DNA of 64,000 bases from Seison nebaliae. Taxonomy: Eukaryota > Rotifera > Pararotatoria > Seisonacea > Seisonidae. Shown here piece by piece: positions 1 to 64,000 of this stretch. Every line of letters begins with the position of its first letter. The stretch's first letter is position 1. Below the pieces are notes generated by a model, which was not told where the DNA came from, made no database searches, and worked only from the letters and a program-made list of their open reading frames with translations. The DNA is taken from NCBI GenBank assembly GCA_023231475.1, contig JALJEE010001120.1:35810-99809 (forward strand), in the 5' to 3' direction. A program made the position numbers and the translations under genes.

Positions 1-19
1 TCATAATAATTCCTCTTCA

Positions 20-286
20 TTATTTCTTTTCCTCTTCATTTCTTGTCAGCTTTTCATCCGTTGATGGAATGTGGGATCTCTTTTGTTCCATTTCCGATAT
101 CATTCCAAATACATAACTCAGATCCAACGGTACATAATTGGGGTCTCTGATCGCCCTCTTCAAAGTTTCTTGGTCAAACATACAAACACTGAATGCATCA
201 AGTTCCTCCAATCGTTCGCGCTCCTCCTCTTCAGTCATTTGTACATTTCCGTTCGTCTCTCCTTCATTTTTTTGTTCATTATTCAT
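20..286 (-). CDS. Small acidic hypothetical protein (88 aa)
   Basis: A complete ATG-to-TAA frame encodes a highly charged protein. It has a Glu/Arg-rich stretch (TEEEERERLEELDAFSV, about residues 18-34), a short segment with regular hydrophobic spacing (residues 34-66), and a Lys/Glu-rich tail. It has no signal peptide or membrane segment. The middle reads like a real amphipathic helix rather than low complexity, but I recognise no family. It lies at the left edge, so it could be one exon of a gene that continues outside the window. Confidence 0.4.
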   Translation of the reverse strand: MNNEQKNEGETNGNVQMTEEEERERLEELDAFSVCMFDQETLKRAIRDPNYVPLDLSYVFGMISEMEQKRSHIPSTDEKLTRNEEEKK

Positions 287-745
287 CGTTATCTACTCTA
301 AAAGAATCGTACGAAAATTACAACTAACCAATTGTCAACGAATATAGCTTAAACGTTTTTCAACGGTTTTCAAACGGTTATCAACCATTGTCGTGATAGA
401 TTATTGTGATGATATGAAGTTTATATTGAGCGATATTTTTAATTTTAAGCTTATTATTATTTTATATTAGAATATCTCCTTATCATCTTTTGATCGTGAT
501 AAACGAGAGATAAATCCATTTTTCTCATTGTTCTTTCCTGAAATATTTGTTGTATTTTCAATGATTAAAATAAAATGATGAGAATATTAAATTTATTAGA
601 ACATAAATATCAGGATTTCGAATGAGTAATAAATTAAAAGAATATAAATTAAGTAGAAAAAACTTGAATTGGGAAGACGAAGATAATTATGGAAAGAAAA
701 GGAAAATGATGACTATGAATGATGAAATGTCCAATCGACTTGAAT

Positions 746-1165
746 AATAATCGAACGCCTTTGAAAAATGTGTTGGAAGTTCTTGAACGAATTGAGAAGA
801 AGTTGGACAATTTGGAAGAATAAGCAACGAAAATTCATGAAGAACTGATGAAAATGACGAAACCGCAAATGATGTGTACAGAGACGATGGGGGTGAATAT
901 TGAAATTGATGAATTACCTCTCTCCAACTTGGAAGAAATGCACAATTTCGAACAATTGTTAATGGAAGGAGAACAATATGAGAAAACAGTTTAATTTAAT
1001 TCTCTCAATTTGGTGGACGTAATGCTAAAGAAACGGTGAAACGAGTTATGGTAAAATTATTGACAACGAAAGGCGAACAAGTCATACCCTAATAAGGGAG
1101 GCTGAAATAAATAGTCTGATTTTGAAAAGACTTGAAAAGACTGAAGATAACGAAAGATTTAACTA
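746..1165 (+). pseudogene. Decayed DUF4806-like coding remnant
   Basis: Translated in pieces, this stretch gives a coiled-coil lead-in (VLEVLERIEKKLDNLEE), then ELPLSNLEEMHNFEQLL, then GGRNAKETVKRVMVKLLTT. That order resembles the DUF4806 domain found in many arthropod and other animal proteins, some linked to mobile elements (family knowledge; no search run). The frame is broken by a TAA at about 821-823, another TAA at about 992-994, and a frame change before the GG-containing segment at about 1006. No splice signals explain the breaks, so I read it as a pseudogene or transposon relic. Confidence 0.55.
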
Positions 1166-2261
1166 AAATCCGTTTTTGATTCCATTCCAAATTTCATTCT
1201 TCAATTCAATTTTGTTTTAATGGACAAATTGAAAAATAAATATAATTAAGTAGTTAATATTTATTAAATTTGAAAATTTCGATTTGATTCTCAATTTTTT
1301 TCAAATGTTTTTATAATACAAATCATAATAAAATATATTCATCTTTATTTCTTTTTATCTTCCATCAACTTCTCTTATAGTTCAAAATAATATATAATAT
1401 TAATAAAATATTAGGAAGGAAAATACTTCCATTTTTATTACCATAATTATTCATCGTTTACCATCAAAAATTTAAGAGATTATTATATAACTGACGCATC
1501 TGTTCTGCCGGAAGAGAATTATTTAATTTCTTCGTACAAATCGAATGGAAAAGTTGAGAGAGATAAAAGACGATGATTAACTAGATTCTTTCCACGTAAC
1601 AAAAGATCTATCTAACAAGTACTATTTTGTAAGTACTATTTTTTGGGAGGTGTGTTCTTCCGGTAGGAAATCATATTTATTTAATGGGGGGACATATGTG
1701 TTGTAAATGAGGCGAAGGTTTGTGAAAGGAGTGAATTGTCTAGCAGCATTAAGTGAATATTGTGAAATGTTACCTTTTTGTTGAGTTTGGTGGATGGTGA
1801 AGGTCGATGATTATTTTTCCTCATTTCCTCATCCTCTCTCCATTTGATGGAAATGGGAATGTAGGCAATCTTTTGTTTATTCTGTAGAACGTAATTTCTC
1901 TATTAACCTTCAATATCGATGTTGTAGAATGATCGTATTTATATGTGGTATGAAAAGAATTATTCAAATTATATAATACGCCAACTTTCCACATAGACAC
2001 AATTTACACATAAAGTGAGGGCAAGAGAGTGGAGTTCTAGTGTGCTATGCAATTCCCTCTTCTCAAAATTCTCTTCTAACATAGCCTTTACTTTCTTTCT
2101 TTCTGCTTCATTCAACCATCTCCACTCTTCCATTCAGTGTTTTGATGAGGAAGTGCCAAATTGTATAATAATAAATAATAAATTAAAATAATAATTCATC
2201 GTGTGTTGAATAATAAATAACATCTGAGCACCAGAAATAGATTGAGGAGAAGATTTCAAAT
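1166..2261. other. Non-coding interval upstream of the calponin-like gene
   Basis: No convincing reading frame on either strand. The sequence is AT-rich, with short T/C-rich stretches near 2090-2130. It presumably holds the promoter and 5' UTR of the gene starting at 2262. Confidence 0.5.
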
Positions 2262-3167: not shown

Positions 3168-3173
3168 TGATTT

Positions 3174-4385: not shown

Positions 4386-4559
4386 TTTATGGTCCCAGTG
4401 AAAAAAAATTTTCCCTATTTTTTCAATTTATCATCCGTCTAACTTACAATTATCGTCATTTAACTACTTGGCTCATTTTCGATGGTGATCAATTTCACTG
4501 ATCAATAATTGTAAAATCAATAATCCATTAATTATGATACATACATGAAACATGATAAT

Positions 4560-4715
4560 TGGAAAAACTTGAAAAAATGAGAAATTTAGAACAAAAAACA
4601 AATTAGAAACTTCAAAAAACAAATTAGAAACTTCAAAAAACAAATGAGAAATTTCAAAAAGAAATTGAGAAATTTAAAAAGAAATTTAGAAATTTAAAAA
4701 GAAAACCATGAAAAT
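4560..4715. repeat. Degenerate tandem A-rich repeat, period about 21 bp
   Basis: Repeated units of the form gaaacttcaaaaaacaaatt drift gradually into gaaatttaaaaagaaattga. About five units are visible. This lies in the spacer between HSD17B7 and the glutamate receptor gene, with no coding frame. Confidence 0.7.
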
Positions 4716-4959: not shown

Positions 4960-7900
4960 ATGAAGATAATTCTTCTCCAATTATTATTTCTCTCTCTCAA
5001 CTGTTGGGTACGATGTGGGAAATATCAGGAAATGTCCGAATTAGATATCGGTTTGAATTGATTGAGAAAGGAAAAAAAACTAAAGATTTTCAGTTGTTCT
5101 ATTCGATACGAATTTTGAAGTGAATGATGCTGTTCATAATTTCATGGACGAATCGACGAACGTCGTCTTCCGAGATGTTCTTTTTGTTAATTTGAAATTT
5201 CTCACAAAATCCACAAGTTAATTTCATTATATCCCAATCTCACAAATCCAATTCACAATCCTTCACTAAACTTCACTGAATTTCACTAAATCTCACGGAA
5301 TTTCAGTTTTTTTCTCGACGATTAAAGAAGAGATCAAATATATGATCGATCTTCGCAAATCGATTACGGGCGACATTCGAGAGGAATGTGAATTTTCCAA
5401 AACCGAATTTCCCAATTTGCAATTTCGTCTTTTGCCAACCATTTACGCGACAACAATTCGAGAGAAATGTGATAATTTAATTCTTCTTCACGTTACAAAT
5501 TGGACTTAATTTTTCCTAATTTAATTACGACATTTTAAAATTTCTCATTAAAAGATCACGGCGAAGAGTTTCGTTTATCATTACAAGAAATTAGTTCAAA
5601 ATTTATTTACGACCAATCAATATAATTTGAAAGAGTTCCTCATTAATTTTCCTGATGAATTCAATTGCTGTTCTTCTTCGAAAGAGCCTTACCGAAAAAC
5701 CATATGCAATATAATGATGTTCTGTTGAGCAAATTCCAAACTCTCATTTATGACAATACTCATCGTTAAAATTTTCGTTTTTGAAAAAAATGTTATGAAA
5801 AATAATAAAATAGACGAATTGATAAGAGAAATGTCGAATGGAAATGAAAGAAAACCATCGAATTATTTTTATTTGAATATCGACGATATTAATCATCAAT
5901 CTGATTTCCTTAACAAAATTCATGAGCTCCAAGGCAATTATACAAAGATGACGGAAGAAATCTCTTTAACATCGACAGATTTGTGCAGGAAACGAGTCAT
6001 TCATCTCAACGTCATCACAGCGACGACAATCGCGAAATTAGATCGAATTATTTTACCATCTCTCATTTATTTATCGACAAATCGCACCGGTTTCATTCGA
6101 TCGTCTACCGGCGAAGTTCAATATCTCCTTGCTGATGGATTGACGACGATCGATATAAATTTCCATCGGAATCAATCGCAAGACATTATCGTCCACAATC
6201 CATTGGACATTTCATTGAATTTTCAATTTTATTCATTCGTTGCCATCTTCAATACCCTCTTCTGATTGTCATTTTTTTCAGGATTATCTCATCGATAATG
6301 TGACGGAGGATCGATTGGAACGGAAACTGAAATATTTCCGTGAATTATTATCGTCGAATTCGAAGGAGGTTCTCTCACAATTGGCGTCGAAAGACTTCCG
6401 AGAGAAACATGAATTATTATTAGAGAAAGAATATCTCATATATTTCACTTATCAATCGCTCATTACGGAAAAAGATGATTTATTAAAAAGAATAATTAGC
6501 AATACAGAATTGTTCAATATGAAATTATATGATCGAAAATTTTTATTTGTTAAATATTTTCAAATTTCAACTTAAAAATTTTCAAATTTCTTTTTCAACC
6601 GTCTCAATTCCAGTTACATGAATTGTTCAAATGTATCGCATATGTTCGACGACAGAAGATTTATGATTTTAAGAAGAAAGATATCCATCCCAATAATTCC
6701 ATCAGGAATTTAGTTATTCATTTTTTCTCTCCAATTTCTTTTTCATTCCATATCAGTTAGACATATTTCTCGTGGCACCGAAAATGAAAAGAATTATCCA
6801 ATTTACTGGTTTGCCAGCACTCGGTACGTGGTATCGTGTGGACGATAAAGTACATGGTGATTATTTGAAAGTTTTGTCATTTTGAAAATCGAATAAATTT
6901 TAAAAATTTAGAATCCGTTTCTGACAAATCAACAAAGAAATATCATTCCCGTAAATATTGTTGTGGTTGGTGAAGAACTTATTTGTAGGAGAAAATGAAG
7001 AAATTAATTTCAGTCGGAACCATTCATCTTTAAGAATGAGTATGGAAGTCGAGAAGAATATCTGAGACTTCTACGTCTGAATAAGAAACGATATTTAGCT
7101 TTGGAAACGGCGGGAGTGAAAGTCGGTCGTATTCTTAAAGTACGACGAGAATGTATGAGTGAGTCTAGCGGGAAATATGTGAATCGAATAGGTGACGAAT
7201 ATTTCGGATATGTCATCGATATGATGTTACATTTGGCGGATCGGATGAATTTAGTTTTCGACGTTTGTGAACCATATGATGGAACGTTCGGTATCCTCAG
7301 TCCCGACAACAAATGGAACGGGGCCTTACGAACCATGATGGATGGAGTTATTATCATATTAAATTTCAAAATTTTAAAAACATTTAAAAATTTTTTTTAT
7401 TTTTTTAGAAAATCGATTTAATTTTAACCGATCTAACGAGAACGGCTGATCGAGCACGTGTCATCGATTATACGGCGGAATTCTTCCCACATTCCGGAAT
7501 TAGTCTCGTCTGGAGCGGTAACAATAATAAAGAAACGTTATTCAATTTTGTTAAAGGTTTTCAATTTCCATCAATATGGTATTGAATGAAATCTATTTTT
7601 TAGTGTTCGATGGATATGTCTGGTTATATATCGGTCTAGCCATCATGTTATCGTCAGTGATAACCTGGTTTTTCGAATACTTCTCTCCACATGCCGAATA
7701 TAAAGAGAAGTTAAGAAAGAATTCTTTATCAAGTCTGTCGGAAATGGGAAATGAGAGAAATAAAGATCCGGAAATCGAACGTATTCCAATCGATAACGAT
7801 TTCACTTTAGTCGAGAGTTTATGGTCAATTTTGGGTAGTTTCCTATTAACTGGTTCTCATTTCAATTTCCATAAAATTTTCATTGTTCCTAAAAAAATTC

Positions 7901-9137
7901 CTCATTCAATAGAAGGACTACAAAGAATTCTCTCGCCCAGCACTCTCGTTTACATGACCTTCTTCTGGTTCTTTACGGCGATTGTCGTATCGACTTATCA
8001 AGCGAATTTAGCCGCTCGATTAACCGTTTCTCGTCTCCAACAAGAGTATACGATTGACGAAATGATACAAATGCCAAATAAGAAGTTTTTTGTTGAAAGT
8101 TTTCAAAAATTAATTTTTATTGAACATACGTTTATATATATAATATATTAATTGTATTAAATATTTCTCTATTTCAGATAATAGTGTGGTTCTTCAATAT
8201 TTCGAAAATATGAAGAGTATTGAGGAACTCTTCACCGGTCATTGGCAACAGAAAACGATGTATAACGAAGATGATGATACGAACGGCTTCTCCACATGGA
8301 CTTATCCTTTAAGGAAACATTTCACTGTCATATTCAACGGACGATTAAGTTTTATTTTTTGAATTTAAAAAATTTCGAACTCGAATTGAAGATCGTATTA
8401 AAACTGTTGCGGAAGTCGTAGAAATAGTTAAGCGGAATAAGAATGCTGCTGGATTTATGGAGACTGCTTTCGTCGAATATCAAAGGAATAAAGATTGCGC
8501 TCTCACCACACTCAAAGAACAGTTTAGTGTGAAAACATATGGATTTGGAGTACGACAAGGAGTTTATCTCGAAGATGATTCTCTATTGAATAGCATATCA
8601 TTTAGGTCTCATTCTACATTTCATTAATTAACAACTATTTATAATTATTTAAAAATTTGAAATTTTCAATTTTTAAAGATTGAGACAAATGCAGGAGAAT
8701 AAAACGTTGACGGAATTAAAGGAATTTTGGTGGTCGTTCGATACGGAGAGTAGTTGTAAATCCGAAAACACCAAATGGACATTTGGTATAATGAACAATA
8801 AAGAGAATTCAGAGAATTCGATTGACATCAACGTTTTTTTTTTTCATTTTATACTTTTCTCATATAATTTTTAAAGACGATCGGAGGCACTTTCATTCTG
8901 TTGGCGGGTGGTATTATTTTAGCGTTTGTCGTCTGTATTATTCAATGGTGTTCATTCAACATTTCTAATCGATTTCGTATAAATCATATCGGTTGTTGGC
9001 GGAATATGGCTGTGAATTTTATGACGAAAATGAGAAAGTTTAGCAGTGTCTCCAACCATACGACGGAAATGCCGGTTGATGTAATTGATGGTTTTCGAAA
9101 GGACAAAGACGAATATTTAGATTCGACTACTTTCTAA
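4960..9137 (+). CDS. Divergent ionotropic glutamate receptor subunit
   Basis: Multi-exon ligand-gated channel. A signal peptide starts at 4960 (MKIILLQLLFLSLNCWVRCG) and is followed by a poorly conserved amino-terminal domain in several small exons (about 5094-6900). S1 ligand-binding half: LTRTADRARVIDYTAEFF keeps the Arg that contacts the ligand carboxylate in this family. M1 is near VWLYIGLAIMLSSVITWF, the pore region near VESLWSILGSFLLT, M3 near WFFTAIVVSTYQANLAARL, then S2 and M4 (FILLAGGIILAFVVCIIQWC), ending at TAA about 9137. Clear introns follow MMDG (about 7348), FVK (about 7556), the pore (about 7851-7912), FFVE (about 8099), and before TIGG (about 8850-8877). Exon edges in the 5' half are uncertain. 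The usual SYTANLAAF motif reads TYQANLAAR here. It could be a kainate/NMDA-like or sensory IR-type subunit. Confidence 0.8.
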
Positions 9138-10166: not shown

Positions 10167-11459
10167 ATGAAAAACTTTCAACGGTTCATTCCTCTTCTTC
10201 TGCTCCTTTTCCAGGTGAATGTCAGAGGAAGTATTGTTGAAGTATCTTTCAATTCCAACAATTGTCAAGTGAAAAACGATGATTCAACTTATGATATCTA
10301 CACCTACGATTTCATCGATTCTCTTTGTTATTTCTCTCTTTCGTTCATTCATTTCATTCACTATCCTTTATACAAACAGATTATAACGGGAAATGTAACG
10401 CTGAACCTCCCACCACTACTACGACTACCACAACAACTACCACCACAACCACAACTACTACCACAACGACCACTACCACCACCGTCACCACCACCACCGT
10501 CACCACCACCACAACAACGACGAATAACGAAACGCTGGCACCGTACACAGGACCTAGCACCACCACCTTAACCACCACAACGACTACCATTACCACCACC
10601 ACAACAACTACCACCACTACAACTACCGCCACTACAACTACCACCACCACCACCATAACTACCACCACCACAACCACCACCACAACCACCACCACCACTA
10701 CAACTACTACAACTACTACGACGGGAACAACGACCGAATTCCCTTCGACCTATGTGGAGATTCCTTCATCTCACGCTTTCTTTCACGTACCACAATCCAT
10801 TGCATATTATCAACTATCGGAATCGACTTGTAGTATTTACCGTTACAAATTCGAATTAAGAGATGGATTGCCCATAAGGACATTTGACAACATCTCATCA
10901 ATCGAATGTGGAGACAGTTTGAATTTTTTTTAATTTGGTTTTTGAAAATTTTAATTAAATTATTTGATTTTATTTTTTTCTTTTGAAAATTCTAATTAAA
11001 TTATTTTATTTTAAAACAACTTTCGGCGGTTTTAATTTGATTTTGAATTTTTCAGGTTTATTATCGGCCGAAACGTCTAAGAAGATTTTGGAAAGTCGAA
11101 AGTTAGTGCTGCAGGATATGCTCGAGCATATCGTTGATGAGCAGCAGAATGTTCTGGAGAAATTGAACGTGGAATATGCGACGGAAATACGTCTATCGAA
11201 ATCGATGGGATATGTCGCTTACGCTTTCTTCGCTTGCATATTAGTCATGATCGTCGTGCTAGATCTCAATTTCGAGGTCATATTCACTATGATCAATTTG
11301 TTTAGGAGCTTTCAGAAGAAGAAGAAGAATGAGAAATCGATTAATATAGAGAGTAAAGCGAAAGTGATGATGACGAAAGTGAAGCAGGTTGATGTGGATC
11401 AGTTACTCTCTATAGAAATGGAAATGTTTCGCTCCTATTCGAAAAGTTCGGTAAAGTAA
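10167..11459 (+). CDS. Secreted-then-anchored threonine-rich (mucin-like) membrane protein (366 aa)
   Basis: Exons 10167-10326, 10380-10916, 11056-11459 sum to a multiple of three. I chose the ATG at 10167 over the in-frame one at 10116 because it begins a clean signal peptide (MKNFQRFIPLLLLLFQVNVR). Next come a short Cys-containing segment, about 110 residues that are almost all Thr (about 10410-10725, ACN codons), an ordered region with two Cys, a helical segment (about 11070-11190), one membrane span (VAYAFFACILVMIVVLDL) and a Lys-rich cytoplasmic tail. Poly-Thr tracts of this kind are usually O-glycosylated stalks (family knowledge). No specific family is recognised. The poly-Val frame on the opposite strand is an artefact of the ACN repeat. 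Confidence 0.7.
10410..10730. repeat. ACN trinucleotide low-complexity tract
   Basis: Near-uninterrupted ACA/ACC/ACT/ACG codons encode the poly-Thr stalk. The codons are mixed rather than a pure microsatellite. This suggests selection or interruption at the protein level rather than recent slippage. Confidence 0.85.
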
Positions 11460-11709: not shown

Positions 11710-12457
11710 ATGTCGAAAGTGCGACAACGGAAAGTCGTCAGTGATCGACCACAATATTCTCCGTTATTGTCACGTGACGGTACGGAAGGAAAACAATCAA
11801 CGACACCGGATGTGGAAGATGCTCTGCCGTTTGGTGGGAAAGTGTTTTTAGCACGACAGAAGAAACCGGATTCCTGGTTCATATTCTCTTTGGAGGTTAT
11901 TCTTCATTGAATAGAATAATTTAAATTAATGATTTGTTTAGATGTGCACGGTGGCGTTGGGAATTGGTATGTTGTTGTACGCCTATTATTATTTCGATCA
12001 TTTACATTATAACGTGAATCGATTCTATGCACATTTGGGATACCCACAAGCACAGCACGTGGTCGGTCACAAATTGTTGCACGGTTAGCTATTGTTTTCG
12101 AATGTCTTGTACGAGATTTGATGAAGGAATCGGAGTGGAGAAACATACGGATAATGCGATGTACTGGTTTTCTCAAGCAGCTAAACAGGGTCATCCACAC
12201 GCGTCCTACAACTTGGCGATTGGCCATTTGAAGGGAATGCATCAATTGGCGAAAGGGTAAGTTTTCATTATACGATTTGTACTAACAGATATTGTGAATG
12301 TAAATAAGAATCGAATGTCTCTATTCCGTTCGTTATCCACTCCATCTAATTGTTTTTTAGGGAAGTGCGTCGATTAATAGAACATGCTGCCGAGAATGGA
12401 GTCCGTGAAGCGCATCATATGAAGAATGAAGTCTGCCTTCATGGCGGTTGTGATTGA
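11710..12457 (+). CDS. Single-pass membrane protein with Sel1-like repeats (184 aa)
   Basis: Exons 11710-11895, 11942-12083, 12127-12256 and 12361-12457 sum to a multiple of three. The N-terminus is cytosolic-looking and charged. One membrane span follows (VALGIGMLLYAYYYF, about residues 65-80). Then come Sel1-type helical repeats: GIGVEKHTDNAMYWFSQAAK, QGHPHASYNLAIGHLKG, and AKGEVRRLIEHAAENGVREA. Sel1 repeats are TPR-like protein-binding solenoids, common in ER quality-control and mitochondrial stress proteins (family knowledge). The third intron (12257-12360) has a standard GTAAGT donor, one of few in the window. No precise orthologue is assigned. Confidence 0.75.
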
Positions 12458-13389: not shown

Positions 13390-14443
13390 ATGTCTGGAAA
13401 TAATCGTGATCTAACTGCCAGCTTTTCTAACGAAATTGATGTTCACAATGTCAAAATTACTAATTCAGCCGATATCACAATTAATCTTGATGAAACTATC
13501 GACTACTCTAAAATTAATTTTGAGGATGATCAACAATCCAAATCCCAACTACGACCATTTATTCCATCGACGACCAACAACCCCCTCACTTCCTCATCAT
13601 CGCCATCCCCTCAACAACAACAACAACAACAACAACAGCAATTGGGATTTTCGAGAATAGAACGTCGAAAAACTGTCAATTTCCCATCAAAAAACAAAAA
13701 GAATAAACATGAAATTGTTAGAACGAACAGTCTCACATCGCCCAGAGCGGCTCTTATGCGCATCAAACAAAAATCCGACGCAACGGTTTTTCCTTCTATT
13801 ATTATTATTATTATAAGCTCAATTGAATTTTAGTCATCAGAATTCGAAAAATTCGATTTTAATACGGAAGAAATCGCTGTTTTCCGGGACACATTCTCCA
13901 TGTTCGACCACGACGGAAACGGTTTCATTACGAGAGAAGAATTCCAAACAGTTCTCACATCATTTGGCCTTTATATGACGGATTATGCCGTATCTAAAAT
14001 GGTTGCTACGATCGACAAAGATGGTTCGTTTGTTTTTTATGCGTTTTTAAGAGGTGAACGAACAAAATCATTTTTTAGGTGATGGTTGTGTGAATTTTGA
14101 TGAATTTGTTTTGATGATGGCGAAGAATCGACTCTTCCTCACCAAAGACGAAGAGGTGCATGAAATAAAAGAAATTTTTAAAATTTTCGATTCGAATGAG
14201 GATGGATTTATCGAATACGACGATATTTCTGTGATTTTTCGTAAACTCGGTGAATATTTGAGTTCCGTTAGTTTCCTTCCTCCCCATTCTCACACTCACC
14301 TATGATATCTCCAGGATGACATAAAGAATATGATTAAAGAAACAGACAGTGACGGCGATGGGAAGATAACGTTTGAAGGTTGTTTCATTTCATTCATATC
14401 ACGAACTGATATTTTTCCAGATTTCCAATCAATGCTCCATTGA
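13390..14443 (+). CDS. Calmodulin-like EF-hand protein with long N-terminal extension (286 aa)
   Basis: Exons 13390-13785, 13834-14023, 14079-14266, 14315-14378 and 14421-14443 sum to a multiple of three. About 145 N-terminal residues are low complexity, with a poly-Gln run (about 13612-13640) and a basic segment. A calmodulin-like core with four EF-hands follows. EF1 reads DHDGNGFITREE, EF2 DKDGDGCVNFDE (split by an intron after the first Gly base), EF3 DSNEDGFIEYDD, EF4 DSDGDGKITFED. All four keep Asp at loop position 1 and an acidic residue at position 12, so Ca2+ binding is likely. The start is the first ATG; upstream in-frame codons are non-ATG. The last exon's stop lies inside the antisense coding end of the sulfotransferase gene. 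Confidence 0.85.
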
Positions 14444-18329: not shown

Positions 18330-20692
18330 TTAGAAGTCTGTATTCTCCTCGTAATCTGATTCGTCTGAGTCGCCACTAGATAGTGAGTCTACCAAACTCA
18401 AATTGTCAAGATCTCCCGCTATACTACCCGCTTCACTTTGTGGTTGTCCTTTCTAAAACGGAAATGAAATAATTTATTTTAATTATTAGGATAATTAACG
18501 TTAAGTTGAGCATTAAGTAGCTGTAGTCCGACGGACGGATCTTGATCTTCTTCAGGTAACTCCGATTCTTGTTTAGACCGAACCTTAAGCCTGTTAATAT
18601 TCTCAGTACTTCCACTTAATTGCGTCGTGGTGGTCGTATCGGAAGTTTGTTTCTTTTTCGATTTGAAAAGTGCTCTGAGTTGTCCAACTTTCTTCGAAAC
18701 AGTATTCGCTGCTCTACGTATGCGAATTGCGGGCCGACTAAGAAATTTCTTTTTGCGACGTTGTCTCGAATCGCTGGGAGAGATCGTTGATGGTCCTGCA
18801 ATTTCTTCAGGTGCGTCATTGAATGGTTGTGACGGAAGATTTTCTTGTAATTTGGCTCTATTCATTTCATTTATAGCCTCTTCTCTCAGTCTCTTTAGTT
18901 TTTCTTGTTGTTCCAGGAACATTTCTTGATGCCGATGTTCCTTCTCTAATAGAATTAGTCGTTCATCGAAGGGGATTATTGCTCTGAATTCTCCTTCAGG
19001 TATTCCGATTTCATCCTCGGGATACGGCCAATTAAGAGACGGATATGTACCCTGAGGTTGATTTCGTCCTTTCTCTGCGTATTTGAGGATCTTGGGATCG
19101 GTACCATTCTTTAAATGCAAAGAAGATGGATGTCTCGCTTCGACCATTCGTTTCGAATACCGTTCTTTCAAATGGGCCCTGGTTGTTCGACTTCGAGAAC
19201 GATCAGGGATGGGTACAGTTCTGGCGTTGGAAGTGTGATAAAGAAGTGCTTGTGGAATGATACCAGTCAACGGTGCACGAATAATACTATAAGTAAGTGT
19301 CACTTCTTGTTTCTTGCCGGTGACGAAAATTTTCGCCATGAAACCATTTTTTTTGTCATTAAAATTGAATTTGGGATCATCAAATTTATCTAATGTTTTC
19401 AAATCATAAACAGTATCAGCACATTTCGGTAATTCAACTTCGCTTTTCTTTAAAGTTACAGCTAATCTATAGACACGATACCGATGGGCGGCTATGAAGA
19501 ATTGGATGAATCCGTGAAGGACGGCGTTGAATTCGTTCAAGGAAGCTTCGGAATAATACAATGCTGTATCGTCCTCATTGAAGAGGAGATATAATAGTAT
19601 GGGCGCCATTACGGTGGCCGGTAGAGGGTCGATATTCAAACTTTGGTATGTCTCCAAAGTTTGAATTTCATTATCAATCGTTTTCAGTTTATGATCCAAA
19701 ACCATCGTCGCTGCACTGCCTTTTTCCCTACGGAGTTTTGCGATTATTGGCATCATTTTTTGCATACAATCTACACTGGGATTGACGTCATCTTCGAAGA
19801 GACTAGCCGCTCTCAAATCGGACATATAACGGTAAAAATTTTCAAATTTAATATCTGTTTCCAATTGTTGGAAAACGGAATATTCTCTCGCTAAATGACT
19901 AAATGCCAAGTTGAACCGATGTTTGGTGTCCATGGCGATTGTGAGCGGTGGTAAGACACGCAACAAATTCATGTATGAAGCACTGGTGTATTTTTGAATT
20001 ATTTGTACTAGCGGCTCCACTACATCATGTACTACAGCGTAGAAATTCTTTGCTATCTGTAAAAGAGGTAACGAACAAAGGGAAATGTGATCGAAGAAAT
20101 CCCCCGTCACATATCGCTTCTCAACGTCCGAATAATATTCGTCGTAATTGGTCGGATCATCCATACCTTTACTGAATGTCTCCAACAAACCCGTTTTCAA
20201 ATAGTCCATACATTTCTTCTCTGAATTCATCACTCCAGCAAAGATGGTTAATGCCAAGTCCAATTTTTCTGTGTATATCTCAAGTGTTTCGTTGTGCAAC
20301 TTCCATCGATGTCGTTTTAACATCATATCGGTGGAGTAGAGAACCATCATCATTTTCGTTAAGAATGTGATTAACGTCAAATGGAGGGTGCGCTTGAGAG
20401 CGAGTAGAACGACAAAAACTGGTCTTACTTTAGCGATTATGTGGTTTAATGCCCGTTGAATATTGAGAGCCTCATAGGGTCGATTACCGGTCAACTTGAT
20501 ATATTGTCTCTTCTCCACCACATTATATTTTTCCGGTAATCGGAGCATGGTGAGTTCGGGAAAAACTAAGAAAATATTTCGATTCGGATATCTCATTCGG
20601 TAACCGGGCAATGTCGGATAACTATTCATTATACCAGCACCATCGTTAATTAAAGACAAAATAAACAAAAGACTACCCACATATATAAACAT
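18330..20692 (-). CDS. Secreted orphan protein, paralogue A (771 aa)
   Basis: Exons 20692-18500 and 18452-18330 sum to a multiple of three. I chose the ATG at 20692 because it starts a signal peptide (MFIYVGSLLFILSLINDGAG); the frame is open a little upstream only with a GTG. The protein shares its order of blocks with the neighbouring paralogue B: LPGYRMRYPNRNIF, NIQRALNHI, LKTGLLETF, ETDIKFENFYRYMSDLR, and four aligned Cys (in KKCMDYL, SLCSLPL, DCMQKM, PKCADTV). After an Arg/Lys-rich amphipathic stretch (RPAIRIRRAANTVSKKVGQL) the short second exon encodes a Ser/Asp/Glu-rich acidic tail. I do not recognise the family. The membrane-free, Cys-conserved, largely helical character suggests a secreted or lumenal protein. 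Confidence 0.75.
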
Positions 20693-21219
20693 GAGAGACA
20701 CGGAATAAAAAGTACAGAAGAAAATAAAAACTGAAATTTAGAAAGAAAATGAAAATAATGCTTTATTTATATGTTTGTTCAAAGTTAAACTGAATTGAAT
20801 ACCGAATTTCAATCCACTTTTATTCATTTTTCTTTCTCACACAAACAGAGACAACTAGAAAATTATTTTAAAAAATATTACAATAAATCATTTACCAGGA
20901 TGCCGTGAACCAATTTCCAAAGATCAACGTCGTGAATTTTTAATTTTTATTTATCAATTACCCTATAGGGATAAAGATAATAATCATATTAAAATTTTTT
21001 TTATCATTTAATTTTATTGTGAGAAACATTTAACTAATTTCTAACAAAAAAGTTCACAATTATTAAAGAAATGAGAATTTTTTTGAATTATTTTGAAATT
21101 TTTCGTTTTTTTTTCAAAGTTTTCTTTTTTAGAGAATTTTATTGCTAATATAAAATAGGAAATTAAAAGTTAATCTATAATAAATTTGAAGAATTTGTTG
21201 GAATGGATTGAATAGTAAA
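20693..21219. other. AT-rich spacer between the two orphan paralogues
   Basis: No coding frame is supported. It contains the presumed promoter of paralogue A and the 3' UTR of paralogue B. Confidence 0.5.
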
Positions 21220-29061: not shown

Positions 29062-29669
29062 ATGTTGACTATTTATCAAATCATCTCATTCTTCTGTATG
29101 TTGTTATTGGCGGAATGCAAGGAGATTGCCGATGCAAATCTGTTGGTAAAGAAGTCGATTTTGAATTCGTTCTATGCTGAATCAATCGATCTCATCATCA
29201 AATATGACGTCTACAATGTGGGCGAGAGGTCTTTCATTTTTTCCTTTAAATTTTCAACATTTTTTCTTTTCCCAGTGATGCTTATAACGTGATTGTGAAA
29301 GACACGTACGAAATTGACGACCTCAAATTGAAGAGTGATTCGAGTGAATTAAAATGGAGTAAAATCGTTCATAAAACCAACGTTTCCGCCGTCATCATTT
29401 ATGAGCCGTTACAACCGAAAATCATGAACATTTCCGTCGGACTCATTCAATACGAGCAAGAAGAAGGCGGAAGTACAAGACAAATTGGACGAAGTAATAA
29501 AATGCCACAAATCGCCGTGATGGCCTTCAACGAATATAGTCGACAATACGCCTCCCACAAATTCGAATGGCTCGTCTTTTTCGGACTTTGCATTCTCTCA
29601 CTCTTCTTCCCATACATGTTGTGGAAACAGAGCGTCGATAAATATGAAGGAATCCAAAAGAAGTTGTAG
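29062..29669 (+). CDS. SSR2: Translocon-associated protein subunit beta (186 aa)
   Basis: Subunit of the TRAP complex that assists Sec61-dependent translocation into the ER. Exons 29062-29228 and 29276-29669 sum to a multiple of three. The start is the ATG that opens a signal peptide (MLTIYQIISFFCMLLLAE). The lumenal domain has the family's beta-sandwich segments (NLLVKKSILNSFYAESIDL, IIKYDVYNVGESDAYNVIV). A single membrane span (WLVFFGLCILSLFFPYMLW) and a short basic cytosolic tail close the protein. The length matches the family (about 183 aa). The intron is 47 bp with a GTC donor. Confidence 0.93.
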
Positions 29670-37000: not shown

Positions 37001-39035
37001 ATGCTTGTCAATCTCAGTGGTGATTATAAGAAATATGCTGCGATTTTCGGTGCTTTCCTCCTACATCTAACCATCGGAGTCAATCATTCGTTTGGTTAGT
37101 GTCCGTCTTCACTTCTACCGCCACTTAACACTTATCCTCTTCCCACCCTCCAGGTAACATAGCGCCTTATATTGTCTCGTATATTCGGTTCGGTGAGAAT
37201 GGAACGACCAAATACGTCGACTTCAATCAAACTGAAGTGGTCGATGAGCGGCACTTGAACAAGTATTATTTATTCGGTGGTGATTACAGTCAAATCGTTT
37301 GGATTTATGGAACGATGTTCGGATTGCAAGGTCTCTGTTCATTCATCGGAGGATTCTATGCACCCAAATTATCCACCCGAACATTGACCTTGATTGGTTG
37401 TAGCATTGCTGAGTTACTAATAAAATTTAATTTTAAAAATTACTAATTTACATTTTTCTCACATTAAGTTTGGGCATCATCTTAACCGGATGGACGTTGA
37501 CTTCTCGTAGTTTCGGTCCCATCATAATAACATTCGGAATTATGTTCGGTTTGGGCTCCGGTATCGTCTATATCCCGCCAATACAATGTGCTATGAATGT
37601 TCGTCATTACAATTTCCTATCAATTAATCTCATTTTAAACACTTTCAGTGGATGCCAGATAAACGAGGATTAGCAACTGGAATCGTTCTTTCCGGACAAG
37701 GATTCGCTGTATTCTTTTTCAGTTTAATTCAATCAAAATTCGTCAATCCCAACAATTTACCCCCAACCAAAGTTCGAGACAGAACGGCAATAGAAGCGTT
37801 TTCTTTAAATCTTCTCTCTCTCCCTCTCTTTCAAATATCTCATAATTTACAGTTTCTTCACACAAAAAGAATTACTTGTTCGTGTGCCCAACATGTTTTA
37901 TTTGTTAGGCGGAATTTTCATCGGAATTCAAATATTCGCCATCAGTTGGCTGCAAGATCCCGAACCGGAAGATGAAGCTAGTCCGTTGGATGTGCACAAA
38001 ATCATTCGGAATGAAAAATCGATCGATTCAATTGAGAATACGGAAATCAGTGAAAATTCTGTGTCATCCGATCACACCACAACCGAACCGTCATATCAAA
38101 ATCGAGAATTGTCGACCGGTTTTCTTTCATTTCCTCATTCATCAATCTCAATTCTCACATATAATCAGTACCGGAAAAATTTACTGATCCGATCGATAAC
38201 GATTTAAACCGAACTTCGACACATGTCGAAATTTTCAATCGATTACGGTTCGAATTTATTTTGGGAAGAATAATATTTAAATATTTTATTAAAATTCAAT
38301 TTCCCTTTTTTAGCGAGTCGTTATCAGATCCAGCATTTCTCATCTTATATGTCACTATGTTTTGCATTCAAACCAGTGTCGTTCTATTAGATTCATTGTA
38401 TAAAGTTTGTAATTCATCAAAATCATCAAAATCATCAAAATCCTCATCAACCTTTTCTTTCGATTTTTAGTCTTATGGACAAACATTCATTCAAGACGAT
38501 CATTTCTTGAGTTATGTGGGAGCGTTTGCTTATATCGCTCATGGTTTTGGACGTATGTTCGGCGGTTATGCTTTCGATAAATTCGATTACAAAGTTAATT
38601 TAGTTTAATATTTTTTATTGTATTAAATATCGGCTAGCTATCAATGGGAGTGTCTTGTGCGGCTACTGGTGTTCTGACAGCGACCATGATCCTCACACCG
38701 TACGGACATAAGGCCATGTTCTTCATTTGGATCGTTCTCCTCTATAATTTTTGGGCATGGTGCTTCTCCATCGTGCCGTCGGCAACTGCCGCTTATTTTG
38801 GAGAGAAGAATTTCGGTCCGAATTATGGACTCATTTTCTCATCAATCTCCATCTCATCAATCTTTGGTGCTACTTTATCACACATCTTATTGGACTATGT
38901 TGGCTGGAATGGAATTTTTCTTGTGGCGGCTGTTTTCGATCTGATCTGTTAGTTCTTTTTAGAATTATCGTCAATTTAAATATGTTCCTCCGTACAGGTC
39001 TCATTCTCGTGTTTATGATCCGTTTGAAGAAATGA
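37001..39035 (+). CDS. Major facilitator superfamily transporter, OFA/monocarboxylate type (512 aa)
   Basis: Ten exons: 37001-37094, 37154-37412, 37469-37598, 37649-37797, 37853-38118, 38169-38247, 38314-38404, 38471-38593, 38638-38947, 38998-39035; the sum is a multiple of three. Twelve membrane segments are implied, starting with YAAIFGAFLLHLTIGVNHSF. The cytosolic loop motif WMPDKRGLATGIVLSGQG and the FFTQKELLVRVPNMF segment are typical of the oxalate/formate antiporter (OFA) and monocarboxylate branch of the MFS. A long central loop separates the two halves. The second half includes GRMFGGYAFDKFD and ends in a short basic tail. Substrate is likely an organic anion, but the sequence does not settle which. 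All nine introns begin GTT. Confidence 0.85.
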
Positions 39036-45897: not shown

Positions 45898-45930
<33 letters not shown>

Positions 45931-48135: not shown

Positions 48136-50523
48136 ATGAATGAGCATGAGAAGATCTCGCCCGAGCTCATATCGGATGTGGAGCGATTGCAGGAGTTGCG
48201 CAAAGAGGCCGCACATCAACTCGACAGTACGGAACTACTCATATTCGTCTCATTACTCATAGTCGTCATTCTAACGATTTGGCTCTTCAAATATAAGCGA
48301 GTGCGATTCGTCCACGAGACGGGTTGTGCTATCGTTTACGGATTGGTCATCGGCTCCATCATCAAATACATCGTTCCTTCTCACTCAGCTGATCATTCTT
48401 ACGTCAATTTGAACGTGACGAGTAACATAATTACGAATTATCGTGACCCACCTCAAATCTTGAGAATTCCCGCCGAAAATTCATCGATCATTTTCTCGTA
48501 CGAATTGAATGACGCTCATTTGCGTACCGTCAAAGAACGATCGGCAATCGTCGATAAAATGACATTTTCACCCGAAATCTTCTTCAATCTCCTCTTGCCA
48601 CCTATCATCTTTTATGCCGGTTATTCGATGCATCGAGGTCATTTCTTTAAGAATTTCGGGACGATACTCACTTTCGCTTTCATCGGAACGACGATCGCTT
48701 GTTTCATTTTTGGAAGTATCGTCTATACCGTCGTCGTATCGTCGAGTATCAAAGAATGGATGGATTTTTCTGATTGCACTTTCTTCGGCGCATTAATCAG
48801 TGCCACCGATCCCGTCACCGTTCTCGCCATTTTCAACGATCTACATGTCGATGTGGATTTGTATGCGATGGTATTCGGTGAGAGTGTGATGAACGATGCT
48901 GTTGCACTCGTTCTAGCCGAGTTAGTCCATTTAATTTAATAAATTATTTAGTATTTTATTTAAATTTCTTTCTTTTTCCATAAAATTTTTAATTTTAATT
49001 ATTAGTATAATTCATGGAGTTAAAGAAAAGAAGTATGTTTCCAATTCTCGTTTTTCTGATAATGATAAAAAAAAACTGTCATCGTCTCTTTCTTTCTCTT
49101 TCTCTTTCTACTCTATCTCACGAGAGGAAAATGCACGTATTCAAATTCAACTCTTTTAGTCAACAAACTCATTTGAATTTTCTTTCGGTCCTCTCATCGG
49201 AAAAAACTAATAGCCAGACAATTAATATCTCACTCATTATATTCTGTGTATTCTTTTAAATTTAATAAATTAATCCAATTTCTTTTAGTACAATCGAATC
49301 GTTCTCCACCTCGCACAAACCACCCACCATCGGTCTACTAGAGGCAGTTGGCAGATTCATTATGATCTTCACCGGTGGTTTCGCCATCGGTGCCAGCATC
49401 GCCATCATTACCGCTCTCATCACCAAGATGACGAATTTGAGAGATCATCCTTTACTCGAAATCGTCTTGTTCTTTCTCATGTCATATTCGTCGTTCTTGG
49501 CAGCGGAAGCTGTCAAATTCACTGGCATCGTATCGATATTATTTTGTGGAATTCTTCAAGCACATTACACCTATCACAACTTGTCAACAGAAGGGAAAAA
49601 TAGAAGTAAAGAAGTTGAATTTGAAATTTGAAAAAAAATTAAAATTTTTTTTTTTTAAGATTTTTGAATTACTCAGTTTTATGAGTGAGAATTTCATATT
49701 CCTTTATATCGGCATAACTCTCACTACCTTCCCATATCATCAATGGCAATATGCTTTCCTCATCGTCTCTTTCGTTAATTTCATTAATTATCAACAATAA
49801 TTTATTATTTATAAAATTAATTAATTTGAAGATCGGAATCGCTGTAGCACGAGCTATTTCCGTTTATGTTCTTTCATTCTGTTTGAATTTTGGACGAATT
49901 CAAAAAATTTCTTGGAATCAACAACATATGCTCTGGTTCTCTGGATTGAGAGGAGCGGTGGCGTTCGCTCTTGCCATTCGTAACACCTCCACAAAAGCAC
50001 GACAATTGATGATAACGAATACGGCACTCATCGTTCTCGTGACGGTTATCATCAACGGTGGATTGACGACGACCGTTTTATCATTCCTCAAAATTCCCAT
50101 AAATGTTTCAGATGATATTGAAAATGAAGTTTCCAATTTTGTTCAAATTAAAATTTAAATTTCCATCATCAGCATCAATTGTTGACGAATGAGAATAATG
50201 TGAACGATTTAAAGAACGTGGATAAACGTGTGGCACTTCCTCTCCGATTATTTCAGAAATTCGACCACAATTACTTGAAACCCTTTCTCACACATAGTCG
50301 TCCCACTCTCATCGAGACATGTCCTCGATGGTTATTCTGGTTCGCTTACATCTTCACATCGGACGAACAAAAAACGTCGCGCACTTCCCCAATTCATAGT
50401 TCGGATGAGAACGATCAACCCAATATCAACAAACAATTCAATCCCATGTTCATGCCACACGACGACAATCATCAGAATAATGAAATGGTTAGTAAGAATG
50501 ACGAGAAGGAAAGAAAAGAATAA
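48136..50523 (+). CDS. Endosomal/organellar Na+(K+)/H+ exchanger, SLC9A6/7/9 type (623 aa)
   Basis: Exchanges cytosolic Na+ or K+ for lumenal H+ to set endosome or Golgi pH. Exons 48136-48920, 49289-49613, 49660-49773, 49832-50128 and 50173-50523 sum to a multiple of three. The first membrane segment is [18 protein letters not shown]. The core carries [40 protein letters not shown] and [14 protein letters not shown] (the conserved ND ion-binding pair), then [36 protein letters not shown] and [16 protein letters not shown]. These match NHE6/7/9 more closely than plasma-membrane NHEs. The cytosolic tail is short and polar, with the conserved [15 protein letters not shown]. Intron 1 (368 bp) is unusually long for this window. 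Confidence 0.93.
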
Positions 50524-51880: not shown

Positions 51881-51889
51881 CCTATATCC

Positions 51890-54299: not shown

Positions 54300-55815
54300 C
54301 TACAATCCATCCATTAACGACAGTAAATTCATCGAATTATCCACTCCATTTTTCTTCATTCGACTCTGCATATTCGTCAGATGTTTATTATGTTCCGACT
54401 ACAATTTAAAATTATTTATTATTTTTAATTATTATTATTATCATAATTAATTTAACATTCTCTTTAAATTGGAGTACGGTAAAATTGACTTTTTCTTCTT
54501 TCTCCTCTTCAACATCCGTTCGATACTCATTATAATCTCTAAAAATAATCAATTTTTTCCATTCTATTCAAAATGCTCAACAATTCGTCACAGTCGTCAG
54601 CGAACAAATCAATTTGAATATCATCTTTCCGTGATTTTTGTTCGCCAATAATCATTTTTTGCAATAAATCCGATTTCCTTACTATAAATCCTTGATCGAT
54701 ATCAGGTACGACATACGACGATGTCTGAGAGACTTGGTCTGTTGAATTTCTGTAATTACTTGTCGTAGTGGTCGGTGTGTTAATGTACCTGAATTTATTT
54801 TTAAATTTGAACGAAACTATTTGATTTTAAAGACCAACATATTCTCACCCAACTTACTTGGCAATCGATGTCCTTTGTATTTGATGGCGAAATTGCCAGG
54901 ACTATTACAAATAATATATTTAACATTCGTTTCGAATCGTTTCGTTTCCACTACTCTCTTATCCTCGTAATATCTAAGCAATTTTTGATGAGTGATGGTG
55001 TGAGGAAAGAAACCTGATTTCACCTGGTACTTCAGTATCGAATGGCATGAGACCACTATCGTCGATGATGAAGGAACCGTCGGAATTCTGTTTTTTATTT
55101 TTGAGGAAAATCGAGACGCGAATACGCAGATCTTGGAAATAGATAAGGATTTGTTGATAACATGTCAACAATTCATAATCGGACATCTCACAATATGCCT
55201 AACAAATTAATGTTATGGAAATAAATGATGGAAATAAATGTGAACTTTACGAAATAATTCTGCCGTGAAATCGATATTTCTCAGAACTAATTTACAATTG
55301 TTCGTATTTCCTTGATTCATCTCCGTCAACATTTGACGTAACGTGTCTAAGTGGGCGAGACTGATAAGAATGCAATCTCGAGGACGGAGAACTTTCGTCA
55401 ACTGATATTTGACAATCATTGTCATCAGATCATATAACTAACAATAAAAAATAAAAAAAGGAAAAATTTTCAAATTAAATTAAATTGAAAAATCCTTTCC
55501 AAACTTTGTTCATGTTATTTGAATTTAATTTTAAGATGGATGCATGTGCAATCTTGTCGAAAATATTTCTCAGATTCGATGTGGAGAACATTTCTTGTGG
55601 TTTGAACACCTCCTCCACAAACGGTCGATGAAACATCGAAGTGATGATATCTTGCATAACTGTAATCGGATTAATCACTTCGACTGATCAATCAAATTGA
55701 AACTTTTTCTTTTCTTTTCACTCGTAATTTCCTGATCGCGTAACCGTTGATCAAGAATGTAAACCATTTCACCACCTAAATTAATTAGTAGGAATGGAAG
55801 GGTTTTCAACGACAT
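54300..55815 (-). CDS. OSCP1: OSCP1 (organic solute carrier partner 1) orthologue (376 aa)
   Basis: Eight exons: 55815-55704, 55659-55505, 55437-55246, 55198-55014, 54973-54854, 54788-54582, 54538-54478, 54398-54300; the sum is a multiple of three and the length matches the family (about 380 aa). The start MSLKTLPFLLINLGGEMVY matches the family N-terminus, so the longer upstream open frame is taken as 5' UTR. Landmarks in order: MFHRPFVEEVFKPQEMF, IAHASILKLNSNNMNKLYDL, IYFQDLRIRVSIFLKNKKQN, FDTEVPGEIRYYEDKR, and a C-terminal LLSLMDGL like the family's LLAMMDEL. OSCP1 proteins are linked to cilia and solute transport (family knowledge). Confidence 0.9.
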
Positions 55816-61431: not shown

Positions 61432-61742
61432 TTAACGCCCCTTTTGTCTCTCACCTTTTAAAGTGTATTTCTAACTTGAAAATTTTTATCACGAAATTTC
61501 TAACGGAAAAAGAAAATTTTTTTTCATTAAAAACTTCGAACCTTCAACAATTCCATAATTATTCCGTTTGTTTGGAAAAGAGAATTTTTTATTTAATTTA
61601 ATTTTTATTGGAAATAATAAATTTAATTAGGAAATCTATTTTATAATTATATTATAAATATGTTTAAAAATAACGGTTGACTTCTTTTTGAAAAAATTTG
61701 ACAGACAATATGAAATAGGATGTGGAGGGAGTGGAGAGGAAA

Positions 61743-63119
61743 ATGATTTTCTGGAATTTTCTCATTCTAATTTCAATTTGTGTGACGAACGTGACGAGTT
61801 ATAATGAATTATCAATTAATCAAAATAGTCGTGAGAGGAGAGATGGTAATATATCCGATAATTTCCTTGTTAACGTTCGCAAACGACGATATATCCATTT
61901 GGAAGGTTTATTATCGTTAGTTCTCGATACGATGTTGCAGAACGGTAGACGACCGTGTTACAATCAACAACTATCAAACAAGTTCGAGGGAATGGGAAAA
62001 GCGGGATATATCCGACAAGCTCATTTACCCGCCGCATCTAACGGTTGTGGGAGTAACAATTATATCGTCACTCCCGATATTCTTCGATATAAATTGGAAC
62101 CGTTAAATTTCTGTTGCGATCAACACGATTGGTGTTATCAGAGATGTGACGTTCCTGATCAATTAACATGTGATCGGAATTTTTTGAATTGTTTAAAGAA
62201 AAGATGTCCTGGAAGTACAGCGAATGAAAAAGTTGATTGTCACAAGAACGTCGCTCATCACATGTACAATATGGTGAGAATGGTGGGAGCGAAATTATTT
62301 TGTAATGCAGAAAATGTTACAGGAAATCGAGAGGAAGAGAAAGTCTTTTTTCCCTTATGTCAAGTGGTGGAGAAGAAAGAAGAATTAACATCTGTCACTT
62401 GGTTTCGAAAAAAGAAACGGATCGAAATCATCAAAAATGAAGATTATGTTCGACAATTCATTCGATTCTTCATTCCCAAACGTTATCAAACGATGAGATA
62501 TAACAAGAGAATTCCTCAATTCCACAATTTGATGATTGAATTGTATGGAGGCGTTTGCAAGAGCAACATGAGTGACAATCATCAATTTCTCAATTTAAAT
62601 TTAAAAGAATTGGACGAATTAATTTTCCCCTTCACTAATCATTCGGATGACGATCTCTCCTGGAGATTGTTGTCCACGAAAATTCTTCTCATGTCTCAAT
62701 TATACGAAAAATTAGATGAAACGTTCAAAGAGAATTTGAAGGTTTTGGATGAGAAAAACATTTTGCTCAATTTCCATCAACATGTCAATGTGGCGATGAA
62801 AATGATCTCGGAGAATATTCCCATATTTCGTACGTGGATCAAATTTATGCCCGTCAATTGTACGAAGGAGAATTATTTTATGCATTTCTTGTCCATCATC
62901 ACACAAATCAATCTACTTCATTCGAGTAGTGTCCAACCATTCCTGTTAACGGATTTCGAAGAATATCAAAACCGTTCGTTAACGATGACTGGAGTTGATG
63001 GAATTCGAACGAATTATGTGATGTTGAGACGGAGAGCGAATAACACAAGTTTGACAATTCGTTACAATTCTTGTTGGATTTTACTTCTATTCATCATCTC
63101 CTTATTGTCATCATGTTGA
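61743..63119 (+). CDS. Secreted phospholipase A2 with long C-terminal extension and hydrophobic tail (458 aa)
   Basis: Single-exon gene. The ATG at 61743 begins a signal peptide (MIFWNFLILISICVTNVTS); upstream in-frame codons are non-ATG. The catalytic core, about residues 60-190, has a Ca2+-loop-like NGCGSNN, the active-site helix NFCCDQHDWCYQRC with the His-Asp pair, and further Cys (LTCDRNFLNCLKKRC). The spacing is nearest to group XII-type secreted PLA2s, which hydrolyse the sn-2 ester of phospholipids or have lost strong activity (family knowledge). About 250 residues follow with no recognised domain. The protein ends in a hydrophobic stretch (CWILLLFIISLLSSC) right at the C-terminus, suggesting a GPI-anchor signal or a tail anchor. 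Confidence 0.8.
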   Translation: MIFWNFLILISICVTNVTSYNELSINQNSRERRDGNISDNFLVNVRKRRYIHLEGLLSLVLDTMLQNGRRPCYNQQLSNKFEGMGKAGYIRQAHLPAASNGCGSNNYIVTPDILRYKLEPLNFCCDQHDWCYQRCDVPDQLTCDRNFLNCLKKRCPGSTANEKVDCHKNVAHHMYNMVRMVGAKLFCNAENVTGNREEEKVFFPLCQVVEKKEELTSVTWFRKKKRIEIIKNEDYVRQFIRFFIPKRYQTMRYNKRIPQFHNLMIELYGGVCKSNMSDNHQFLNLNLKELDELIFPFTNHSDDDLSWRLLSTKILLMSQLYEKLDETFKENLKVLDEKNILLNFHQHVNVAMKMISENIPIFRTWIKFMPVNCTKENYFMHFLSIITQINLLHSSSVQPFLLTDFEEYQNRSLTMTGVDGIRTNYVMLRRRANNTSLTIRYNSCWILLLFIISLLSSC

Positions 63120-63777
63120 GGATGTTCCATTTATTTCATTCTTCCACCGTTTCACCATTTGTTATGAAAAAATTATTTTGTTATATTAAATCATTTTCCC
63201 GGTCGATTCTTTTTTTTTTCAAACTCCAAAAATTTATTGCCTATCTATTTTTCGTTCATTTCAGTTTACAGTCAAATAAATAATCTGAAAAATCATCTTT
63301 CCAATTTTCTCATAAAATAATAGAAAGAGAACAATGAAAAAAATCAAAATAATTTGAATATGTCAAAAACAATGCTAATTAAGATAGCACTTTAATTTTT
63401 TTACAAATTAGTTTTAAATTAGTGTCTAAATTCATACAAATTGTATTATATGCAGAATGATAGATAATTGTACAGAAATATAAAATTAATCACTGTAATT
63501 CAAAGTTGAAATATTTGATTTATTTGTAGACTAGACAAGACTAGGTAATTTTGATGAAAATAAAATTCAAATGATAAATCCTATTAATTTCATGAAGAAT
63601 TGAAGAATTTGGTAGAAATCCTTTAAGAATTTCTTCAATTCTTATTTTATGATATACGATATTTGAATTTTGATTATACGATTTCAATCCACACTTCAAA
63701 TTTAGTTAGACGATGGAATAGTTCTAGAACAGAGACATAATTAGACATAGGAATTAAAGGTCTGGTGGAAGACTAAT
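63120..63777. other. AT-rich 3' spacer
   Basis: No gene is visible. It presumably contains the 3' UTR of the phospholipase gene and spacer. Confidence 0.4.
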
Positions 63778-63996
63778 ATGAATGTGAAGAATAATCCGTT
63801 CGAAATGGAATCTGTCAAGTTTTTAAATCTTCATTCCCTCATTTTCCGGCGTTATCCAAATGTTTCCCATTGTCATTTATGTTCGGAAAGGTTAATGTTA
63901 ATCTGCTTTTTTGTGGTAACGATTAACGGAGAATTTCTCGGACGATGTACAAAATGTAGATGTAGAAAAAGGAAAACATTAGAACTTAAAAATTAG
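63778..63996 (+). CDS. Short zinc-ribbon-like ORF at the right edge (72 aa)
   Basis: ATG-to-stop frame with two CxxC pairs (SHCHLCSERLML and GRCTKCRCRKRK) about 25 residues apart, as in a zinc ribbon, followed by a basic stretch. The layout resembles the N-terminal zinc ribbon of IS1595/ISXO2-like (Merlin-type) transposases, which have spread into animals, but the match is weak. It stops at the edge of the window, so it may be a transposase fragment or the first exon of a longer gene. Confidence 0.35.
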   Translation: MNVKNNPFEMESVKFLNLHSLIFRRYPNVSHCHLCSERLMLICFFVVTINGEFLGRCTKCRCRKRKTLELKN

Positions 63997-64000
63997 GAAA

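Follow-up and report, generated by a model that had tools for sequence, protein, structure and literature searches.

The 5′ splice-site code of the rotifer Seison nebaliae has probably been rewritten at the third intron base (+3), and its U1 small nuclear RNA (snRNA) appears to have changed with it; from the donor and gene sequences described below, the probability of this reading is put at about 0.78. S. nebaliae is a tiny marine animal, an epizoic rotifer with an AT-rich genome. The window analysed here is a stretch of 64,000 nucleotides on contig C576 (GenBank JALJEE010001120.1, positions 35,810 to 99,809) of assembly GCA_023231475.1, which comprises 36.0 Mb in 846 contigs. Donors were surveyed in the window and in 20 other 10-kb stretches, together 264 kb of the 36 Mb. 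A first-pass annotation had reported near-universal GTT donors in the window, and their predominance is confirmed as real, both within it and beyond it.

Introns were placed with a purpose-written gene finder. It scores coding sequence together with GT..AG introns, at first without any donor preference, and is then self-trained. In the initial pass, 67% of 117 introns had T at +3, and the share was 72% among the 67 introns of well-scoring genes; as background, 39.2% of all GT dinucleotides are followed by T. Decoy donors (CT, TT, AT, GA and GG) paired with AG acceptors in the same pass carried 32–46% T at +3, and the share was 54% when GT donors were combined with AC as a decoy acceptor, perhaps because real GTT donors are found despite the wrong acceptor. 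The converged, self-trained model placed T at +3 in 173/191 introns across the 264 kb and in 51/56 introns of the window. Setting the +3 column to zero gave 171/193 and 51/57, respectively, and at 24 small loci outside the training set a +3-neutral model found T in 14 of 15 introns. Training that began from GTRAGT flipped to +3 T (89% of 179 introns). Unconstrained self-training drifts, with decoy GA donors moving to 75% A at +3 and CT donors to 56% T; when the choice among GT, GC, AT, GA and GG was left open, a model took AT donors in 193 of 560 cases. Weight was therefore placed on the initial pass, on junctions placed by homology and on deposited proteins.

For the homology set, six predicted proteins with 39 junctions in total were compared with solved homologues (calmodulin, NHE6, RFC5, NOX5, VGLUT2 and NRAMP). 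Twenty-six junctions in gap-free alignment, picked by eye, were kept; the 13 left out lay beyond the part or alignment used, or close to a gap, and all are GTT according to the model. At +3, the 26 gap-free junctions comprise 23 T, 1 A, 1 C and 1 G. A same-length alternative GT..AG pair within 24 nt was found for none of them (0/26), while six have an alternative that alters the length by 3 or 6 nt, and among those six the alternative is non-GTT for three GTT junctions. Exact matches of two deposited Seison proteins to the DNA define 26 uniquely placed introns, of which 24 are GTT, one GTC and one GTG; all 26 are GT-AG, even with GC or AT donors and an AC acceptor permitted. In these two genes our model recovered 23 of the 26 donors with zero extra donors, missing three introns and placing two acceptors differently. 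Its glutamate-receptor-like protein from the window shares 96% identity over 98% of its length with the deposited SNEBB_011314, and its VGLUT-like protein from contig C570 is 100% identical to SNEBB_011487 over the 531 residues given. The homology and deposited-protein sets share seven junctions, and their union, by our own count, has 41 T, 2 C, 1 A and 1 G at +3 in 45 junctions, so the purine expected of U2-type introns is not the rule here. The counts of 51/56, 24/26 and 41/45 GTT introns (converged window model, deposited proteins and union, respectively) bear out the first-pass annotation on its central claim.

Outside the GU itself, +3 is the sole strong position of the donor, at 1.07 bits; all the others reach at most 0.34 bits. 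U occupies +3 in 91% of donors and +4 in 42%, and general U-richness is therefore not the explanation. The exon-final base is A (46%) more often than G (28%). Two further descriptions of these introns, that they lack a strong G at +5 and that they are tiny, also hold: G stands at +5 in 23% of donors, and 155 of the 191 introns are 40–59 nt long.

Few RNA stretches in eukaryotes are as conserved as the U1 5′ end. A search of the assembly with Rfam family RF00003 identified four U1 genes, with scores of 97.4–112.9 bits (gathering cut-off 69.5):

C208:8280-8439, minus strand, U1 gene L001, starts AUACUAAC
C647:4426-4585, minus strand, U1 gene L003, starts AUACUAAC
C762:47440-47598, minus strand, U1 gene L004, starts AUACUAAC, also with U for C at position 9
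C208:6576-6739, plus strand, U1 gene L002, canonical, starts AUACUUACC

The 5′ end is AUACUAAC instead of AUACUUAC in three of the four genes, a change of U to A at position 6 (A6). In standard pairing, U1 position 6 faces intron +3. The neighbouring U1 position 5 is reported to face donor +4 (PMC10581693). One of the four genes has the RF00003 5′ end, AUACUUACCUG, and the other three differ from it by one or two substitutions. When the assembly was searched with a pattern for the U1 5′ end that allowed any base at position 6, the four U1 genes and one other site were returned, and a reversed control pattern gave six chance matches. The other site, L009, was rejected as a U1 gene.

Pairwise identity among the four U1 copies is 62–67%, and among the A6 copies 64–67%; the predicted A6 genes are not recent copies of one another. 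At this identity, the U1 copies do not seem to be homogenised in the way that snRNA copies are expected to be. All three A6 genes retain the U1-A loop CAUUGCAC (AUUGCAC) and, by eye, an Sm-like site, and in the canonical gene the loop is altered to CAGAGCAC. Across the four genes, 13 of the 41 consensus pairs are invariant, 10 have changed on both sides while staying paired in every copy, and 14 are broken in at least one U1 copy. A box, AATTAAACT, is found at +9 downstream of all three A6 genes and is also exact after the U5 gene and one of the three U2 genes, lying 9–19 nt downstream of L001, L003, L004, L006 and L046 (U1, U5 and one U2). It has one mismatch after the canonical U1 gene, and one and two mismatches after the remaining two U2 genes. 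It is likely an snRNA 3′ processing box, picked after the sequences had been viewed, and matches with at most one mismatch occur in 3.6% of random 60-nt windows. A conserved snRNA promoter element was sought by eye and with one motif derived from L004; with up to two mismatches allowed, the motif occurs upstream of just L004 itself, U5 and one U2 gene, and it was set aside. The canonical gene may be active, and looks less typical than the A6 genes.

To judge the fit of U1 to the donors, in-register Watson–Crick pairs were counted for the canonical U1 end and for each of the 33 ends that differ from it by one base. U6A ranked first of the 34 for the 191 model donors, with a mean of 6.01 pairs against 5.15 for the canonical end (173 donors better, 10 equal, 8 worse), and it ranked first again for the 26 deposited-protein donors, at 6.00 against 5.08 (24 better, 2 equal, 0 worse). 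Combining U6A with U9, as in L004, raised the 191-donor mean to 6.18 and left the 26-donor mean unchanged at 6.00. Donors without T at +3 had more matches elsewhere (2.94 versus 2.08, p 0.001), a comparison that is not independent of the gene model, which favours such donors; compensation elsewhere in these donors was accordingly set aside as confounded and not used as evidence.

Among the parts of the splicing machinery examined, the change is local to the U1–donor pair, since the U2, U5 and U6 contact sites are unchanged and the zinc-finger region of U1-C is conserved. The single U6 gene found keeps its ACAGAGA box, the U5 contact loop is intact, and GUAGUA is kept in each of three U2 genes. 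The third of these, L048, is diverged (78.7 bits) and has some weakened pairs. Two U4 genes were located in the assembly. The U1-C protein (L044) is close to the human sequence except around residues 25–32. A METTL16 candidate is represented by a single PF05971 match (44.8 bits). A search of the assembly for U12 snRNA gave no match, a result that cannot show absence, and a search for a bdelloid-type spliced leader sequence found none.

In the proposed mechanism, U1 positions 6–8 (A-A-C) would pair with intron positions +3 to +1 (U-U-G), and positions 3–9 (ACUAACC) would fit the donor G/GUUAGU (the slash marks the splice site). Pairing of A6 U1 with the +3 U would help to set the donor, and the U at position 9 of L004 would fit the common exon-final A. 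The fourth gene, which keeps AUACUUACCUGG, could serve the rare GTA introns. All this supposes that the A6 genes are expressed and that their RNAs enter U1 small nuclear ribonucleoproteins and select donors, as we infer from the gene sequences. Because no donor position outside GU is strong except +3 U, U1 is probably joined by a second reader of +3, such as a protein or U6 G44 through a G-U pair; with −1, +4, +5 and +6 all weak, pairing with U1 provides little specificity on its own. A more elaborate version is tentative and rather doubtful: the U1 paralogues might form a set with separate donor codes, A6 with C9 reading G/GUU, A6 with U9 reading A/GUU, and U6 with C9 reading residual GUA. 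If true, the first step of splicing would have been naturally recoded in this animal, with the ancestral reader still present.

Several observations weigh against a joint change of donor and U1. The A6 genes are known here from sequence alone, and they come from one genome, so the relation is an association without a phylogenetic test. The other positions contacted by U1 are weak (G at −1 in 28% and at +5 in 23%). One canonical U1 gene remains and folds well (112 bits), its altered U1-A loop and one-mismatch 3′ box notwithstanding. In-register duplex energy averages about +1 kcal/mol with A6 (+3 with the canonical end) and puts U6G slightly above U6A, because G-U pairs with the +3 U are counted; energy calculated without register puts A6 third of 34.

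The weakness of the remaining U1-read positions also speaks for a rival in which U6, Prp8 or another later factor drives the +3 U, leaving the U1 change as a by-product or late adjustment. The +3 base, usually A or G, is reported to have no more than a weak interaction with U6 G44 (PMC11732430); U6 G44, opposite +3, could form a G-U pair with U, and the U6 and U5 contact sites are intact. Against such a factor as the driver, the U1 change lies exactly opposite +3 in three diverged copies, and the unchanged U6 box means that U6 alone does not explain why S. nebaliae differs. We regard this explanation as possible, though unlikely. It is improbable that the canonical U1 (C208:6576-6739), which is present and scores well, does the work and tolerates the +3 U while the A6 genes have other roles or are decaying. 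Watson–Crick pairing at +3 would then be impossible with 183 of the 191 donors; moreover, the three diverged A6 genes retain the fold, the U1-A loop and an exact 3′ box, whereas L002 is the copy that lost the U1-A loop sequence and has a mismatch in the 3′ box.

An artefact of intron placement or base composition is suggested by the AT-rich genome and by the drift in self-training (GA decoys to 75% A, CT to 56% T, and 193/560 AT donors), and yet it is very hard to credit. The unbiased initial pass already gave 72% of 67, a GTRAGT start reverses to T, the gap-free homology junctions give 23/26, and the deposited proteins give 24/26, unless their annotation has the same error; on these four grounds a gene-modelling artefact was rejected. 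The first-pass annotation had read the donors as a sign of altered donor recognition, for example by a changed U1 or U6 or a U1-independent mode. That reading is supported, for a candidate U1 change in three of four genes. A changed U6 box is not seen in the one U6 gene found, where ACAGAGA is intact, and the four U1 genes rule out an Entamoeba-like absence of U1; recovery of the U1 and U6 genes, proposed there as a check, yielded four U1 genes (three with A6) and one U6 gene with its box kept. A donor code rewritten at +3 together with U1 remains the reading we prefer.

Introns of the window that illustrate the donor set are given below in window coordinates. Those of the glutamate-receptor-like gene SNEBB_011314, all on the plus strand, were placed by exact match of the deposited protein (P0241).

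5051..5093, plus, donor GTTTGA
5217..5306, plus, donor GTTAAT; our model ended at 5327
5492..5554, plus, donor GTTACA
5635..5684, plus, donor GTTCCT
5765..5813, plus, donor GTTAAA
6239..6281, plus, donor GTTGCC
6549..6613, plus, donor GTTAAA
6713..6756, plus, donor GTTATT
6871..6911, plus, donor GTTTTG; fused with the next intron by our model
6966..7013, plus, donor GTTGGT
7347..7408, plus, donor GTTATT
7557..7603, plus, donor GTTTTC
7853..7912, plus, donor GTTCTC; missed by our model
8099..8177, plus, donor GTTTTC
8349..8391, plus, donor GTTTTA
8606..8678, plus, donor GTCTCA, an exception
8833..8876, plus, donor GTTTTT

Introns of other genes in the window:

12257..12360, plus, donor GTAAGT, an exception; Sel1-repeat-like gene, unsupervised model only
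14024..14078, plus, donor GTTCGT; calmodulin-like gene, model and gap-free alignment to calmodulin
14267..14314, plus, donor GTTAGT, which fits the whole intron half of the A6 U1 site; calmodulin-like gene, model and calmodulin alignment
29229..29275, plus, donor GTCTTT, an exception; putative TRAP-beta gene (name from the first-pass annotation), model
37315..38952, plus, seven introns, all GTT; MFS gene (name from the same source), model
49614..49659, plus, donor GTTGAA; Na/H exchanger, NHE6-like, model and gap-free alignment to NHE6
49774..49831, plus, donor GTTAAT; Na/H exchanger, NHE6-like, model and gap-free alignment to NHE6
54399..54456, minus, donor GTTAAA; GTAC at 54477 falls in an exon, model

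All introns of the MFS gene had been described as GTT, which agrees with the seven placed here; nine had been counted in a longer span. Of the four exceptions originally listed, the GTC near 8605 is confirmed as 8606-8678 by the deposited protein. GTC at 29229 and GTAAGT at 12257 are placed by our model only, and GTAC at 54477 is probably wrong, the model reading through it and using GTTAAA at 54456 instead. Two further non-GTT donors come from the model: GTC at 11277 and, doubtfully, GTA at 42264.

Other features of the window were seen in passing. Two tandem genes on the minus strand (18330-20827 and 21220-23711) encode proteins that look alike by eye, and a Pfam comparison at E 0.01 gave no match for the main open frame of either. 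On the same strand, one gene model at 24549-28667 joins glutamyl- and prolyl-tRNA synthetase parts through a Thr-/Lys-rich linker; a 33-row EPRS tree, with an end branch of 1.62, failed to place the animal. The predicted protein at 10295-10933 (plus strand) has a long poly-threonine tract. COX1 had no match in the assembly.

Neither U1 A6 nor a near-universal GTT donor is reported for any animal in the available portions of the best-matching open-licence papers listed. The Seison genome paper, in its accessible sections, mentions intronic spans and, once, splice sites in gene prediction, and its S. nebaliae RNA-seq derives from a two-strain sample with a different assembly size (PMC8351084). 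The available text of PMC12256650 makes no mention of intron, splicing or snRNA, and that of PMC7310846 none of splice site, snRNA or intron; rotifers, Adineta, Seison and acanthocephalans go unnamed in the corresponding parts of PMC7072748. With the donor base and its putative U1 partner both changed, how genome-wide splicing signals move becomes directly testable, and if other rotifers or thorny-headed worms have the pair too, a tree could reveal in what order the events took place. Gene finders trained on GTRAGT may misplace Seison introns.

The Seison U1 genes resemble RF00003 in family, fold, U1-A loop, Sm-like site and in-register pairing with GU donors; they differ in having A at position 6 in three of four genes, opposite donors that are GUU rather than GUR. 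Entamoeba histolytica likewise has short introns, of about 75 nt, and U at +3, but there the excerpts available describe a conserved GUUUGUU and a reported lack of U1 snRNA (PMC6085484; PMC13292270), whereas Seison has U1 genes with a matching change and only +3 is strong. Fritillaria borealis is, like Seison, an animal lineage with a massive donor shift; most of its introns break the GT/AG rule, and its U1 5′ end is described as strictly preserved (PMC13326754), while Seison retains GT and AG. In the diplonemid S. specki, canonical and variant U1 genes are reported to coexist, as they do in Seison, but the variant has a 5′ run of C and no link to a single-position donor switch is described there (PMC12621601). 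The Saccharomycotina share a genome-wide change at a single 5′ splice-site position. Theirs is a switch at +4, facing U1 position 5 and linked to METTL16 and SNRNP27K; a U1 change to match this switch, sought in more than 200 yeasts, is reported to be absent, ACUUACC being invariant wherever U1 was found (PMC10581693). In Seison, by contrast, the switch is at +3 and U1 itself appears to be altered.

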